DNA of 64,000 nucleotides, taken from NCBI RefSeq assembly GCF_000419585.1, contig NZ_ATTH01000001.1:704005-768004 (forward strand), written 5' to 3'. The notes beneath the pieces were generated by a model. The model was not told the origin of the DNA and ran no database searches. It saw only the letters and a program-made list of their open reading frames with translations. The stretch is from Salisaeta longa DSM 21114. GTDB taxonomy: Bacteria > Bacteroidota > Rhodothermia > Rhodothermales > Salinibacteraceae. Shown here piece by piece: positions 54,808-63,469 of the stretch; positions within the stretch are counted from its first letter, which is position 1; the number at the start of each line of letters is the position of its first letter. The position numbers and the translations under genes are program-made.

Positions 54808-55104
54808 ATGCCAAACGCAACCCCCCTTTCCGACGCTGACCTGCAGGATGCGCTTGCAGGCCTCGACGGCTGGTCGCACACCGACGACCAGCTGGTCAAG
54901 TCGTTCACCTTTACGGATTTTCGTGCCGCCATCAGCTTCATCGTGCGGCTGAGCTTCTATGCCGAGGAGCTCAATCATCACCCCGAGCTGACCAACGTCT
55001 ACAACGAAGTGACCGTGGCCCTCACGACGCACGATGCGGGCAACGTGGTGACCGACCTGGACGTGCAGCTCGCCGAAGCGATTGAAGAATTTGCCTGGGC
55101 CTGA
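54808..55104 (+). CDS. phhB: 4a-hydroxytetrahydrobiopterin (pterin-4a-carbinolamine) dehydratase
   Basis: A 98-residue PhhB/DCoH protein. The active-site motif Glu-Leu-Asn-His57-His58-Pro-Glu is intact, and Leu-Thr-Thr-His-Asp-Ala-Gly-Asn-Val-Val-Thr-Asp-Leu-Asp gives the third region. These enzymes dehydrate the pterin carbinolamine made by aromatic amino acid hydroxylases; some serve molybdopterin metabolism. No hydroxylase gene is present here. It sits 34 nt after nuoM and 47 nt before nuoN on the same strand, so it is carried within the complex I operon. Confidence 0.92.
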   Translation: MPNATPLSDADLQDALAGLDGWSHTDDQLVKSFTFTDFRAAISFIVRLSFYAEELNHHPELTNVYNEVTVALTTHDAGNVVTDLDVQLAEAIEEFAWA

Positions 55105-58230: not shown

Positions 58231-58692
58231 CTACGTCGGCATCCACCGGTGCACCGTGAGGGAGGCGGCTGCAGATGCGTCGCTGAGTAGAGTGCGCGAC
58301 GGCATCGGCGCATTCCAGCGGATGAAGTGTGTCGGGCAGGCACAATCGGAGCTGCCCAGGCCCTTGCGCGGACTCGTGGCCACCGGGTGGGTGCGCAGCG
58401 CCGCTGCCCAGGTGCACTCGTGCGACGAGGCATCGTAGGCCAGCCAGACGGTGCGTAGGGTCAGCGCTTCACGCAGGTAATCGATGTGCCAGTGCGCGTT
58501 CTTTTGGCGTCGCGCGTGGCGCTGGACTCGGGCCCGCAGACCGCCCGGCCCGCGGGCACTGCCCACATACGCGTACCAGCCCGGTTGTAGCGTCACCGGG
58601 CCCCGCGCGCCCACCGTTACGGTGCGGACGCTGTCGGCGTGCAACCACAGCACGTAAGTGCCCGGCGCGTTGCGTAGCAGTGCAGCCATCAT
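58231..58692 (-). CDS. DUF123 GIY-YIG-type nuclease-family protein
   Basis: A 153-residue protein. It begins with Gly-Thr-Tyr-Val-Leu-Trp-Leu and holds Gly-Trp-Tyr-Ala-Tyr-Val-Gly-Ser-Ala, the DUF123 version of the GIY-YIG motif. Gly-Gly-Leu-Arg-Ala-Arg-Val-Gln-Arg-His and His-Trp-His-Ile-Asp-Tyr-Leu follow. Cys residues and a final Phe-Ile-Arg-Trp region complete the family pattern. Nuclease activity is not established for all members. Its ATG overlaps the DinB gene stop (ATGA), so the two are co-translated. Confidence 0.85.
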   Translation of the reverse strand: MMAALLRNAPGTYVLWLHADSVRTVTVGARGPVTLQPGWYAYVGSARGPGGLRARVQRHARRQKNAHWHIDYLREALTLRTVWLAYDASSHECTWAAALRTHPVATSPRKGLGSSDCACPTHFIRWNAPMPSRTLLSDASAAASLTVHRWMPT

Positions 58693-59381: not shown

Positions 59382-60341
59382 TCAGAGGTATCCGTACAGC
59401 GCAAGCGTCTCGCCAGCCACGCGCTCGGCGGCCGCAATTTCCTCGGGCGGGCGCTGCTCATGCTTGCCGATGGACGTGGTGCGGGCCTTGGCCAGTTGGC
59501 GGCGGAAGGAGCGGGTGGGGGCCACGCCGTAGTGTGCCAAAATGGCTTCGCCGGTGGCCACCGGATCGCGCACAAAGTCCTCGTAGCGGATGGTGAGCAC
59601 GCGTCCGCTATCGCTCACGGCGGGTGCAGTGAACGCCTCGTGGCAGCGCCGCAGCATGTAGCTCCACATCCAGATGGCACGCACGTACGGCGTGGCGCCA
59701 AGGAATGCCTCCGACTCTTCCGCAGGCACCCACCACGGCACGTACCGATCGCCTACGCGCCGCCCGATGCGCATCTCGGAGCCCTGGAGCGTGGTGAGGG
59801 CCTCGTCGGTGAGCACGTTGTACGTTTTGACGAGCGAGTTGGCGACGTCGCGCCCGTCGCGGTAGATGTGCACGATCTTGGCCGCGGGCAGGGCATCGAG
59901 CACAAACTCGGGTGCAAAGCTTAGGAACGGCTCTTTGTACACGAACAATGACTCGGTGCGCTCGCTGCGCCAGGCACGGCGCAGGCCGGCGAGTCCGCTG
60001 GGCGCACGCACCCACTTTTGGAGCGCCGCGGCCCGCGACCGGTAGCGCCCGGAATGCAGATACGCATCCAGCGCCCGCTCAAATCCAACCGCAAGCGCGT
60101 CGTACACGTCCGGGGAAATGTCCTGGTTCACCACGTGTGGGATGGCCGTGGGCAAGACGGTGCCCGTGAGGGCCTCTACCGCGGGCAAGCTGTTGAAGAC
60201 GCTCATGAGGTAGGTGGTGCCCGAGCGCGGCGCGCCCAGTACGATGCCGTAGCGCATGGCGCGGGCGTTGGAGGCCGCAGCGGCGGTTGTCGCGGGGCGG
60301 GCGGCGGTAGGCGCGGAGGAAAGCACTGTTGGGGGGGTCAT
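59382..60341 (-). CDS. PAPS-dependent sulfotransferase family protein (A)
   Basis: A 319-residue sulfotransferase. The 5'-phosphosulfate loop Gly-Ala-Pro-Arg39-Ser-Gly-Thr-Thr-Tyr-Leu and the 3'-phosphate motif Ile-Tyr-Arg-Asp-Gly-Arg-Asp-Val-Ala-Asn-Ser are clear. Tyr-Glu-Asp-Phe-Val-Arg-Asp-Pro follows. This resembles carbohydrate-type sulfotransferases. The acceptor cannot be told. The first 28 residues are Pro/Ala/Thr-rich, with a run of seven C in codons 2-5 (60332-60338). An alternative start at 60257 would omit this tail. The ATG overlaps the preceding glycosyltransferase stop (ATGA). It is the last gene of the four-gene cassette. Confidence 0.9.
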   Translation of the reverse strand: MTPPTVLSSAPTAARPATTAAAASNARAMRYGIVLGAPRSGTTYLMSVFNSLPAVEALTGTVLPTAIPHVVNQDISPDVYDALAVGFERALDAYLHSGRYRSRAAALQKWVRAPSGLAGLRRAWRSERTESLFVYKEPFLSFAPEFVLDALPAAKIVHIYRDGRDVANSLVKTYNVLTDEALTTLQGSEMRIGRRVGDRYVPWWVPAEESEAFLGATPYVRAIWMWSYMLRRCHEAFTAPAVSDSGRVLTIRYEDFVRDPVATGEAILAHYGVAPTRSFRRQLAKARTTSIGKHEQRPPEEIAAAERVAGETLALYGYL

Positions 60342-61480
60342 GGGGCGGTGGGGTGCAAGGTGAGCGGGTGGACGGCGTCGTACTGCCGATGAACGGCCGT
60401 TACGAACGCGTCCATGCTGAAGGTGGTGGCGGCATGGCGGAGCCCGGCGCGGCCCATCTCGTTGGCGCGTGGAGCATTGTGGGCCAGTAAGGCAATGGTG
60501 CGAGCCAGCCCGGCCCGGTCGCGTGGGGGCACAAGGAGCGAAAAATCGGGGTCGGCATATTCGGGGATGCCGCCCACCGCGCTGGCCACGACGGGGCGTC
60601 CGGCCGCGGCCGCTTCGAGGGTGACGAGGCCCGCCGGTTCGTGCCAGACCGACGGCACGGCCACCATGCGAGCACGCTGAAACAGAACGGCAAGGCGCTC
60701 GGGCGCGCACCAGCCATGAAATGTCACGCGGTCGGTGCACCCCAGCTGCTGGGCGAGGGCCTGGAGGTCGTCCATGGCCGCCCCGGTGCCGGCAATGTCG
60801 AGGTGCACATCGGGCACGTCGTTGCACGCCTTCGTCAGCCAATCGACGCCCTTTTGGGGCGAGAGGCGGCCCAAAAACAGCACCCGGGGCGGCCCGTCGG
60901 TTGGAACGGGCACAAACGCGGAGCGGGGCGCGGGCGCTGGGGAGGGCACCACGTGGAGCTGCTCCGCCGGCAGGCCGGCCTGCACCATGCGCTCTTTTAG
61001 GAAGTGACTCACCGGCAGGGTGCGAATGTGCGCGGCCTGCGAGCGTTCGTGCAGCCAGTTCGTCCAGTGCGACGCCACAGCGGTGCGTTGCTCGCAGCGG
61101 TCGACAAAATGCCCCCACACGCAGCCTGCAACCGACGGGGTACGGTTGCAGGGCCTGCCGGTGCGCGACAGGTAGCGCGACCCAGCGGGGCAGTTGCCCT
61201 GATTGCCGTGCATGGTGCGTACGACCGGCAGATTGGCGGGCGGGCGAAGCGCCAGCGGCTTGTGCAGGTGCAGCACATCGACGCCGAGGTCGCGCGCGGC
61301 CTGAACGACGGCTTGATCAGACGCAAACGTGCGCGTTCCGTCGGGGGCGTCGGGCGGGGCCTGGTGGCAAAAAAAGTGGACGGTGTGCCCCCGGGCGCGC
61401 TGCGCATGGGCCAGGCGACGCACGTACGTTGCAATGCCGCCGGGAGCCCACAGGTCGGGAGCGAAATGCGCGATATGCAT
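60338..61480 (-). CDS. GT4-family glycosyltransferase (second of the cassette)
   Basis: A 380-residue GT-B glycosyltransferase of the GT4 type. The N-terminal half starts His-Phe-Ala-Pro-Asp-Leu-Trp-Ala-Pro-Gly-Gly-Ile-Ala-Thr-Tyr-Val. The C-terminal half has Val-Leu-Phe-Leu-Gly-Arg-Leu-Ser-Pro-Gln-Lys-Gly and Trp-His-Glu-Pro-Ala-Gly-Leu-Val-Thr-Leu-Glu-Ala, the Ex7E nucleotide-sugar site. A Cys-rich loop (Asn-Cys-Pro-Ala...Cys-Asn...Gly-Cys-Val...Asp-Arg-Cys) around residues 110-140 recalls GT4 enzymes that act with sulfotransferases. Donor and acceptor are unknown. It begins 4 nt after the upstream sulfotransferase ends. Confidence 0.92.
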   Translation of the reverse strand: MHIAHFAPDLWAPGGIATYVRRLAHAQRARGHTVHFFCHQAPPDAPDGTRTFASDQAVVQAARDLGVDVLHLHKPLALRPPANLPVVRTMHGNQGNCPAGSRYLSRTGRPCNRTPSVAGCVWGHFVDRCEQRTAVASHWTNWLHERSQAAHIRTLPVSHFLKERMVQAGLPAEQLHVVPSPAPAPRSAFVPVPTDGPPRVLFLGRLSPQKGVDWLTKACNDVPDVHLDIAGTGAAMDDLQALAQQLGCTDRVTFHGWCAPERLAVLFQRARMVAVPSVWHEPAGLVTLEAAAAGRPVVASAVGGIPEYADPDFSLLVPPRDRAGLARTIALLAHNAPRANEMGRAGLRHAATTFSMDAFVTAVHRQYDAVHPLTLHPTAP

Positions 61481-61484
61481 GGCG

Positions 61485-62366
61485 TTACCAGGATTGGTTG
61501 GAAGCATAGCCCAGCCGGACGAGCAGGTCGCCGTAGCGTGCTTTGAAGGCGTCGGTGACGGCGGGGGTAAAGTGATTGGCCCAGTCGCCCGGCACGCCTT
61601 TGCGGTAGTGGCTGGACCGCTTCTCCTCTCCGCGCGCGCGGCCCCCGGAGAGCTTCTTAAAGCTCTTCGCCTCAAGAATGCGCACCAGCTGATCGTGCGG
61701 CATGGACGCGAGGCGCCGGCGCGGCAGCGGCAGCAGGGGCCAGCCGCCGGTGAGGCGCTTGCCCTTGTGGCTGAGGCGGTTCCACCGCAGTTGGGCCTGA
61801 CGCACGGTTTTGCGGACGCCGCCTGCGGGCGCATCCAGCCAGCCAAAGAAGTCGGCGATTTGGGTGAAGCCATCCAGCGGCGCGGCCGTCAGTACTTCCA
61901 TCTTGAGCTCAAGCACGTGGGCCTGGCCGTAGTCCCACGCGGCCATCGCATCGAAGACGTCCTGGCTGAACGCAAGCTCCAACAGCAGTCCTTCGTCCTT
62001 ATCGGCTGCCTGCAGGGCCGCGCGGTGCGGCTGAAGCGCGGGCCACTCGTCGGTGGGGTGCGAGCGCAGGTGCGAGAAGTACGCCGACACGAGCACGTCG
62101 CGCGGGTCGCGCACCACGTGCACGCCGCGGTGGGCCGGCAGCGTACGGGCCTGGGCATGGGTGGCATTGGTGTAGAAGAGCAGGTCGGGCTGTCGCGTCG
62201 CCACGCGGCCCCCCAAATTCCCATGCGGCGCAATATCGCTTGGGAGGTGGACGATGTCGTGACGGAGGCCGAGGTGAAAGGCGCATTCGCGCATGATCTC
62301 GGTGATCCAGCCGGTGGCGCACTTGTGGTGGCCGTACACTACGCGAAGGGAAGGCAAGCGGGTCAT
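61485..62366 (-). CDS. PAPS-dependent sulfotransferase (B)
   Basis: A 293-residue sulfotransferase. The 5'-PSB loop is Gly-His-His-Lys-Cys-Ala-Thr-Gly-Trp-Ile with the catalytic Lys. The 3'-PB motif is Val-Val-Arg-Asp-Pro-Arg-Asp-Val-Leu-Val-Ser-Ala. The C-terminal Arg-Lys-Gly-Val-Pro-Gly-Asp-Trp-Ala-Asn-His-Phe-Thr binds the nucleotide phosphate as in cytosolic SULT enzymes. It differs clearly from sulfotransferase A, so they probably modify different positions. Its ATG overlaps the upstream GT4 stop (ATGA). Confidence 0.92.
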   Translation of the reverse strand: MTRLPSLRVVYGHHKCATGWITEIMRECAFHLGLRHDIVHLPSDIAPHGNLGGRVATRQPDLLFYTNATHAQARTLPAHRGVHVVRDPRDVLVSAYFSHLRSHPTDEWPALQPHRAALQAADKDEGLLLELAFSQDVFDAMAAWDYGQAHVLELKMEVLTAAPLDGFTQIADFFGWLDAPAGGVRKTVRQAQLRWNRLSHKGKRLTGGWPLLPLPRRRLASMPHDQLVRILEAKSFKKLSGGRARGEEKRSSHYRKGVPGDWANHFTPAVTDAFKARYGDLLVRLGYASNQSW

Positions 62367-63469
62367 GATGCAGGTAGGGGCGCTGGGGGAGAAGGGGTGA
62401 GGGCGGGCAACAGCGACGTTGTAGCGGCCAGGGGACGGCGGCGCAGCATCTGCAGGTGGTCGATGAGAGCGGCGGTGTCTCCGGTGGGCACCACGTATCC
62501 ATTGTCGCCCGGTTGCACGTACTCTTTCATGCCGGTGTCTTCGGTCACGATGACCGGAACGCCGCAGGCAAGGGCCTCCATGGGAGCGTAGCCAAAGCCA
62601 TCTTCGTAGGTCGGATGCACAAAGACATCGGCGCGATGCAGGGCGGGCAGCGGGTCGCCGGGGGCCACGGTGAGGTTTGGGTGGGTCTGCTGCGCGCGTT
62701 CAAGGTAGCGGCGCATCGGGCGGCCCGTCCATCCGCCCACGAGCGTGAGCTCGGCCGTCGGGTCGTTGAGGGCCGCAAAGGCTTCCACGAGGTGCGTGAT
62801 GCCCTTGGTTGCATCGAGGCGGCCCACGTACACCATGCGGAAGCGCCCGTCTGCAGGGCGGGCCGCGGGGGGCGCAAAGCGCGGGTGGGGGCGCAGCACG
62901 GTGCGCACCAGCTTGTGCGACGGAATGCCCGCAGCAACGAAGCTTGCCCGCACATAGTTGGAATGCACGTAGATCCGGTCGGCCAGGGCGTACTCGGCGC
63001 GCGTGGCCCGGCGCTGGGCGTCATTGAGCCACGAATCATGGAGGCCGGTGGCCCGGGCGGCGGTGCGGTGCTGGCGCATGACTTGGTCGACGTGGCTGTT
63101 GGCGGCCACGAGCTCCAGCGTCTCGTAGCCTTGTGCGCGGGCCGCGCGAAACGTGTGCAGCGACTTGCCCACAAAGCCCATGTAGGCCGATGCACCGTCG
63201 GGGAGGCGACGGGCCATGTGGCGATCGAACAAGGTGTTCAGCGTCCAGCTCTTCCAGCCGGGCGACCAGCGCAGCGGCGGCACCTGAAGCAGCGTGTGCC
63301 ACCACGAGGGCCGCGCAATGGGCGCCCCCAGCACATCGGCGGCGGGAATGTTGCCGGGGGTGTAGTAGCGATACAGCAGACCCGCCGCCCGCGATTCCTC
63401 TACGAGCTGCGCAAAATGCTGCCCAATGCCGCCCTGCTCATACGGCGAGTTGCACGCGAGAACGCGCAT
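62363..63469 (-). CDS. GT4-family glycosyltransferase (first of the cassette)
   Basis: A 368-residue GT-B enzyme. It starts Leu-Ala-Cys-Asn-Ser-Pro-Tyr-Glu-Gln-Gly-Gly-Ile-Gly-Gln-His, a GT4 acceptor-side motif. The donor half has Met-Val-Tyr-Val-Gly-Arg-Leu-Asp-Ala-Thr-Lys-Gly and Tyr-Glu-Asp-Gly-Phe-Gly-Tyr-Ala-Pro-Met-Glu-Ala-Leu-Ala-Cys-Gly (Ex7E). It heads the four-gene cassette. The divergent hydrolase start is 215 bp away, so the promoter must lie at 63470-63684. The other GT4 protein differs enough that they probably make two separate linkages. Confidence 0.92.
   Translation of the reverse strand: MRVLACNSPYEQGGIGQHFAQLVEESRAAGLLYRYYTPGNIPAADVLGAPIARPSWWHTLLQVPPLRWSPGWKSWTLNTLFDRHMARRLPDGASAYMGFVGKSLHTFRAARAQGYETLELVAANSHVDQVMRQHRTAARATGLHDSWLNDAQRRATRAEYALADRIYVHSNYVRASFVAAGIPSHKLVRTVLRPHPRFAPPAARPADGRFRMVYVGRLDATKGITHLVEAFAALNDPTAELTLVGGWTGRPMRRYLERAQQTHPNLTVAPGDPLPALHRADVFVHPTYEDGFGYAPMEALACGVPVIVTEDTGMKEYVQPGDNGYVVPTGDTAALIDHLQMLRRRPLAATTSLLPALTPSPPAPLPAS

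Follow-up and report, generated by a model that had tools for sequence, protein, structure and literature searches.

Alternating GT4 glycosyltransferase and sulfotransferase genes of Salisaeta longa: probable central block of a dispersed pathway for a sulfated surface polysaccharide

Four adjacent genes of Salisaeta longa DSM 21114 encode, in alternation, two glycosyltransferases of the GT4 family and two sulfotransferases that depend on 3'-phosphoadenosine-5'-phosphosulfate (PAPS), and they raise the question of what such a set of enzymes makes and whether it makes it alone. The genes are found in a 64,000-nucleotide stretch of DNA (C1:704005-768004, hereafter the window) of a 3.40 Mb genome assembled in 3 contigs, and their surroundings in the window are a DinB-like gene, nuo genes, and a hydrolase. 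A preliminary description of the window favored a short sulfated glycan or glycolipid built by the cassette itself. Here, we reach a different answer: the cassette is probably the central block of a pathway, conserved in Rhodothermia, that would make a sulfated surface polysaccharide, with the gene cluster for this pathway split in S. longa into four blocks.

The cassette and its conservation across Rhodothermia

The first gene of the cassette, GT4A, encodes a GT4-family glycosyltransferase of 368 amino acids (window positions 62363-63469, on the minus strand like the other three; PF00534, E = 1.4e-27). It is followed by STA, a PAPS-dependent sulfotransferase of 293 amino acids (61485-62366; PF00685, E = 5.3e-11), by GT4B, a second GT4-family glycosyltransferase of 380 amino acids with a four-cysteine insertion (60338-61480; PF00534, E = 4.6e-32), and by STB, a second PAPS-dependent sulfotransferase of 319 amino acids (59382-60341; PF13469, E = 7.6e-21). 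These four intact reading frames were correctly placed in the preliminary description. Three junctions connect them on the minus strand: the ATGA overlaps between GT4A and STA (62363-62366) and between GT4B and STB (60338-60341), and the 4-nt gap (CGCC, 61481-61484) between STA and GT4B. A third ATGA overlap had been counted within the cassette, which must be a miscount because four genes have only three junctions. That overlap (58689-58692) is located downstream of the cassette, where it links the DinB-like gene, starting about 120 nt beyond the cassette end, with the next gene.

Homologues were surveyed in 245 genomes of the class, using thresholds of E ≤ 1e-30 for GT4A and E ≤ 1e-20 for STB. 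Several of the relatives are fragmented metagenome-assembled genomes (MAGs), and their gene maps were made with a simple codon-usage caller of open reading frames, which mis-called one locus (L052), and were labeled by BLAST. GT4A was found at 15 loci in 13 of the 245 genomes, with two contig-end pieces in G161 taken as one, and STB in 12. At 11 of the 15 GT4A loci, GT4A and GT4B occur together, either directly or with STA between them. The complete order GT4A-STA-GT4B-STB is present in four genomes from four families: the source genome (G000), G174, G154, and G161, the last with a contig break inside GT4A. G183 has the order STA-GT4B-STB, and G149, from a fifth family, keeps the alternation of GT4 and sulfotransferase genes, although its second GT4 is not GT4B. 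In 10 of the 12 genomes with STB, this gene is next to GT4B or separated from it by a single gene; the remaining two cases are a contig edge and G149. Whether the order is conserved in other Rhodothermia had been posed as a check on the preliminary description, and the survey bears the order out: it recurs in several families, and the homologues are not always scattered. Such recurrence in several families shows that the arrangement is not due to chance.

The variants indicate which genes belong together most firmly. STB is missing from the GT4A locus of G199 and from one locus of G186. Neither Salinivenus species has a clear STA (there is no STA match in S. iranica and only weak partial matches in S. 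lutea), and in both of them an OpgC/HGSNAT-like membrane acyltransferase is situated between GT4B and STB (L067:9157-10371 and L068:8515-9729). This arrangement suggests that acylation and sulfation take turns in decorating one backbone. Judged by gene content, the stable core is the GT4A-GT4B pair and the sulfotransferases are optional, so the latter look like interchangeable decorations. The idea that each sulfotransferase would modify a sugar added by the GT4A-GT4B pair fits this gene content. Stepwise addition and sulfation of sugars, as first proposed for this locus, is also the natural reading of the paired order.

Two further arrangements were observed among the relatives. Loci L054, L055, and L056 of another family (f8) carry a repeated trio of a UDP-GlcNAc 2-epimerase-like gene (identified by eye), a GT4-like gene, and an STA homologue, so the pairing of a glycosyltransferase with an STA-type sulfotransferase is wider than the cassette. 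Genome G169 has four STA-like sulfotransferase genes in tandem (L064:8382-12018), a local expansion.

A foreign origin of the cassette is not supported by its composition. Although its GC content (0.68) exceeds that of the window (0.64), the GC content at third codon positions (GC3) of the cassette genes, 0.81-0.84, equals that of the adjacent genes. Recent insertion was considered from the synteny of the flanks; the DinB-like gene and the hydrolase are adjacent in none of 26 genomes of the family, and for this reason insertion and rearrangement cannot be told apart here. Scans of the cassette locus for promoters, terminators, and RNAs found nothing. Elsewhere in the window, a small pterin-4a-carbinolamine dehydratase-like gene (54808-55104) was recognized by eye between the nuoM-like and nuoN-like genes of the complex I region.

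Predicted properties of the four enzymes

Both GT4 proteins contain the Glycos_transf_1 domain (scores of 96.8 and 111.4 bits; cut-off 26.4) together with the EX7E-type acid pair of the GT4 family. In GT4B the motif is regular (E281...E289), and E281 and its context are invariant in an alignment of 14 sequences. GT4A reads EDGFGYAPME at this place, such that the first acid is Asp290 (or a shifted Glu289); none of E289, D290, and E298 varies among 12 orthologs, which are 45-60% identical and invariant in their motifs. In the insertion of GT4B, C97, C111, C120, and C129 are invariant and His91 is conserved in 14 of 14 aligned orthologs (residues 91-129). This insertion is possibly metal-binding or disulfide-linked.

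The two sulfotransferases differ from one another in family and in their closest structural matches. STA matches Sulfotransfer_1 and STB matches Sulfotransfer_3, both above the Pfam cut-off, and the domain, the 5'-phosphosulfate loop, the 3'-phosphate motif, and the fold of PAPS sulfotransferases were found in each. The motifs of STA are KCATGW at position 15, RDPRDVLVS at 86 (R86-S94), and RKGVPGDW at 255, and those of STB are GAPRSGTT at 36 and RDGRDVANS at 161; the core residues show little or no variation in the ortholog alignments of 12 sequences. The AlphaFold model of STA (pLDDT 80) has cytosolic sulfotransferases as its top matches in the PDB, and that of STB (pLDDT 84, with residues 1-26 predicted to be disordered) has tyrosylprotein and mycobacterial sulfotransferases. 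The TM-scores of the two models to PAPS sulfotransferases of the PDB are only about 0.4-0.6, so the acceptor specificity cannot be read from these matches.

A sequence search of the PDB with the cassette proteins returned remote relatives only, and no curated NCBIfam model was matched at its cut-off by any of the four. No membrane segment was found in any of them, and all four should therefore act in the cytoplasm. The catalytic motifs, described as intact in the preliminary description, are conserved among the orthologs of all four enzymes, and by these sequence features all four genes look functional.

The larger cluster and its dispersal in S. longa

Where the contigs of the relatives extend far enough, the cassette is part of a collinear cluster of 15-20 kb. 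Its named carriers are Salinivenus lutea, Salinivenus iranica, and Rhodothermaceae/Rhodothermales MAGs. The order of this cluster is an ABC half-transporter, one to three sulfotransferases (ST1, ST1b, and others), GT4A-STA-GT4B-STB, a GT47 of the exostosin type, the GT4-like gene GTg, a Wzy-like membrane protein, and GT4s; a further sulfotransferase, ST3, is present in the clusters of several relatives. In S. iranica the genes are ABC, ST1, ST1b, GT4A, GT4B, acyltransferase, STB, GT47, GTg, Wzy, GT, GT535, and GTend. In the relatives, then, at least two sulfotransferases are found within a cluster for glycosyltransferases, flippase, and polymerase, as is characteristic of gene clusters of the synechan kind. 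By sequence, the ABC protein is a B-family half-transporter like MsbA. No Wzx (MATE-like) flippase was seen in the gene maps of the relatives, in which not every cluster gene was profiled, and the MsbA-type half-transporter seems, from its sequence and place, to occupy the flippase role. An MsbA-type ABC protein with a Wzy-like polymerase and no Wzx would be an unusual combination, and the polymerase assignment is weak here. In G174, a fragment of a chain-length tyrosine kinase was identified by eye ahead of the ABC gene.

Similar neighbors occur in the cyanobacterium cf. Phormidesmis sp. LEGE 11477 (L086), where an STB homologue (46%) is near an ABC homologue (46%), and where a further sulfotransferase-like gene and a chain-length-determinant-like protein were recognized by eye. 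This suggests gene transfer between cyanobacteria and Rhodothermia.

The counterparts of the cluster in S. longa were sought by family searches and by one query of concatenated proteins, for which the E-values are approximate. Four blocks were found on C1 (percentages are those of the ortholog search). Block 1, at 101.4-105.2 kb, contains ABC (52-56%), a GT61, and ST1. Block 2, at 485.9-488.0 kb, contains GT47 (43-50%) and ST1b (48-56%). The cassette itself, at 763.4-767.5 kb, forms block 3, and block 4, at 165.6-171.8 kb, contains GTg (46-51%), the Wzy-like gene (40-44%), and three GT4 genes. When the genes of S. iranica are labeled by these blocks, they read 1:ABC, 1:ST1, 2:ST1b, 3:GT4A, 3:GT4B, 3:STB, 2:GT47, 4:GTg, 4:Wzy, 4:GT535, and 4:GTend. 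Since the orthologs of the four blocks form this one run, the limits of the cassette as first drawn are those of an evolutionary block. In the relatives, the two genes of block 2 are located on either side of the cassette, and their order is reversed in S. longa. The relatives' clusters include no equivalent of the GT61 in block 1, and for ST3 and two of the relatives' glycosyltransferases no clear ortholog was found in this genome. The dispersal is not an assembly gap, because C1 is a single contig of 3.19 Mb. The genome also contains one priming transferase (PF02397, C1:1685523), one outer-membrane polysaccharide export protein (PF02563, C1:2018620), and the APS kinase for PAPS.

The fragmentation of the ancestral cluster explains why no flippase or polymerase is linked to the cassette. 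The earlier statement that no flippase, polymerase, or transporter is linked therefore holds for the locus; it fails for the genome, where orthologs of the ABC and Wzy-like proteins are encoded elsewhere, and for the relatives, where the genes are clustered. The cassette stands alone and yet is probably not independent, as the cluster to which it belonged is broken into four blocks.

The proposed pathway and its alternatives

In the proposed pathway, the priming transferase would start a lipid-linked repeat unit, to which GT4A and GT4B would each add one sugar in the cytoplasm. Soluble STA and STB would then sulfate the sugars added by GT4A and GT4B using PAPS, and the repeat unit would be completed by GT47, GT4s, and the further sulfotransferases. 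The MsbA-type ABC half-transporter would flip the unit, the Wzy-like membrane protein would polymerize it, and the polymer would leave the cell through the outer-membrane export protein. What is observed is the gene content, the conserved order, the intact motifs, and a genome that encodes the remaining parts. We infer from the genes the identity of the sugars, the acceptor sugars, the sites and the number of sulfates, the cooperation of the four blocks, and the polymeric nature of the product. The evolutionary distances of GT4A, GT4B, STB, and GTg co-vary across 6-9 genomes.

Several observations weigh against this pathway. The sulfate, the sugars, and the polymer are deduced from genes and not from chemistry, and the blocks are physically apart in this genome, which makes a functional link among them less secure. 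The distances of the ABC protein are hardly correlated with those of GT4A (r = 0.17) or GTg (r = -0.04) in the same 6-9 genomes. The Wzy-like protein of S. longa has no Pfam match, though it is hydrophobic, and that of a relative matches Wzy_C at E = 1.9e-5, below the curated cut-off. GT4A is solitary at 3 of its 15 loci (G187, G188, and one locus of G154), and other clusters at about 2.34, 2.85, and 3.09 Mb in this genome offer alternative partners that the cassette could serve.

The stand-alone pathway of the preliminary description, in which two GT4s and two sulfotransferases make a sulfated oligosaccharide on a lipid without any polymer, would account directly for the solitary GT4A genes and for a locus whose neighbors supply neither transporter nor polymerase. 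However, the relatives' cassette shares its cluster with genes for an ABC transporter and for a Wzy-like polymerase. S. longa retains orthologs of both, along with further glycosyltransferase and sulfotransferase partners, at three other loci. The presence of these two functions in the relatives' cluster and in the genome itself makes a sulfated surface polysaccharide likelier than a short glycolipid. In addition, the best match of the cassette to the mycobacterial Stf0 type of sulfoglycolipid sulfotransferases (PF09037), that of STB, is below the cut-off (E = 0.051, 13.5 bits against 22). We consider the stand-alone pathway unlikely.

There is no better chance that the cassette, after its separation from the ancestral partners, was recruited by another glycan cluster and now modifies or extends a different polymer or a glycoprotein. 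Candidate hosts exist: regions with glycosyltransferases and sulfotransferases are located at C1:2333000-2352000 (L010), 2843000-2855000 (L012), and 3076000-3095000 (L011), the first of which encodes an STA paralog of about 39% identity, and PF00685 is found at ten places in this genome. A new partner need not be postulated, however, because the main other ancestral blocks persist as intact genes. Decay toward loss, with no present function, would be consistent with a broken cluster that lacks clear orthologs of ST3 and some glycosyltransferases, but is very improbable for four full-length frames whose catalytic residues are conserved, whose junctions are tight, and whose GC3 is like that of the host.

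A broader version of the polysaccharide pathway can be offered tentatively, and we would sooner expect it to fail in some part than to hold throughout. It would be an old pathway of the whole order for a multiply sulfated heteropolysaccharide, made by alternating pairs of GT4s and sulfotransferases, flipped by an MsbA-type ABC half-transporter, and polymerized by a Wzy-like enzyme. The pattern of sulfation would vary as sulfotransferases were exchanged while the GT4A-GT4B backbone stayed fixed, part of the cluster would be shared with cyanobacteria, and in S. longa it would persist as four ordered blocks.

Comparison with known systems

Annotation guided by linkage alone would clearly be misled by a cluster broken up in this way. 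The conserved multi-sulfotransferase cluster of halophilic Rhodothermia, including the cultured Salinivenus, is a candidate new source of sulfated polysaccharides and provides a set of carbohydrate sulfotransferases together with the glycosyltransferases that match them. In Salinibacter-like brine bacteria, phage susceptibility is thought to be governed by surface glycans, and the cluster would supply a genetic basis for the diversity of sulfated and glycosylated metabolites in these organisms.

Sulfated glycans had been called poorly known in this bacterial group. That statement is weakened by the published genomic islands of Salinibacter ruber, which are enriched in sulfotransferases and glycosyltransferases and are matched by strain differences in sulfonated and glycosylated metabolites (PMC3669384, PMC6060240), although the literature searched yielded neither a structure nor a pathway. 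These surface-polysaccharide islands share with the present cluster the bacterial group, both enzyme classes, ABC transporters, and a putative polymerase (PMC3669384, PMC6060240, PMC2800850). Unlike these islands, which are strain-variable and have no defined pathway, the cassette has an order that is conserved across families. No paper joining Rhodothermales and sulfotransferase was found in the literature searched.

The restriction of sulfated bacterial polysaccharides to cyanobacteria was still stated in 2021 and 2026 (PMC8205485, PMC13125312). It is contradicted by the capsule of Vibrio sp. KMM 8419 (PMC11641403) and by the exopolymers of Pontiella (PMC7356697). According to the available part of the Vibrio report, the sulfated polysaccharide is chemically proven and its cluster contains several glycosyltransferases, sulfotransferases, and an ABC transporter, as in Rhodothermia; it differs in that the capsule is ABC-exported, the PAPS genes are within the cluster, and the phylum is another one, and that part describes no alternating GT4-sulfotransferase-GT4-sulfotransferase block (PMC11641403). 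For Pontiella, likewise from the accessible portion of the report, a sulfated exopolymer was detected and a putative glycosaminoglycan-like cluster combines GT2/GT4 with a PF13469 sulfotransferase. This non-cyanobacterial cluster resembles ours in its GT4 and PF13469 genes, and differs in phylum and in having one sulfotransferase, with no GT4-sulfotransferase alternation reported in that portion (PMC7356697). Clusters for sulfated polysaccharides are thus known; the conserved alternating GT4/sulfotransferase module, the combination of an ABC protein with a Wzy-like protein, and the break-up into ordered blocks appear to be undescribed in the literature searched.

Sulfated polysaccharides come mostly from cyanobacteria of saline habitats, according to the report on synechan, the exopolysaccharide made by the xss genes of Synechocystis 6803 (PMC8205485). 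A search of a plasmid collection for synechan relatives gave no match for STB and, for STA, only proteins of Ruegeria/Rhodobacteraceae at 24%, the inclusion of the synechan plasmid in that collection being unverified. The xss cluster has a Wzx flippase and the regulators XssQ/R/S, whereas the transporter of the Rhodothermia cluster is an MsbA-type ABC protein, the host is a member of the Rhodothermia, and in S. longa the genes are dispersed. What the two systems have in common is several glycosyltransferases, at least two unlike sulfotransferases, and flippase and polymerase functions (PMC8205485).

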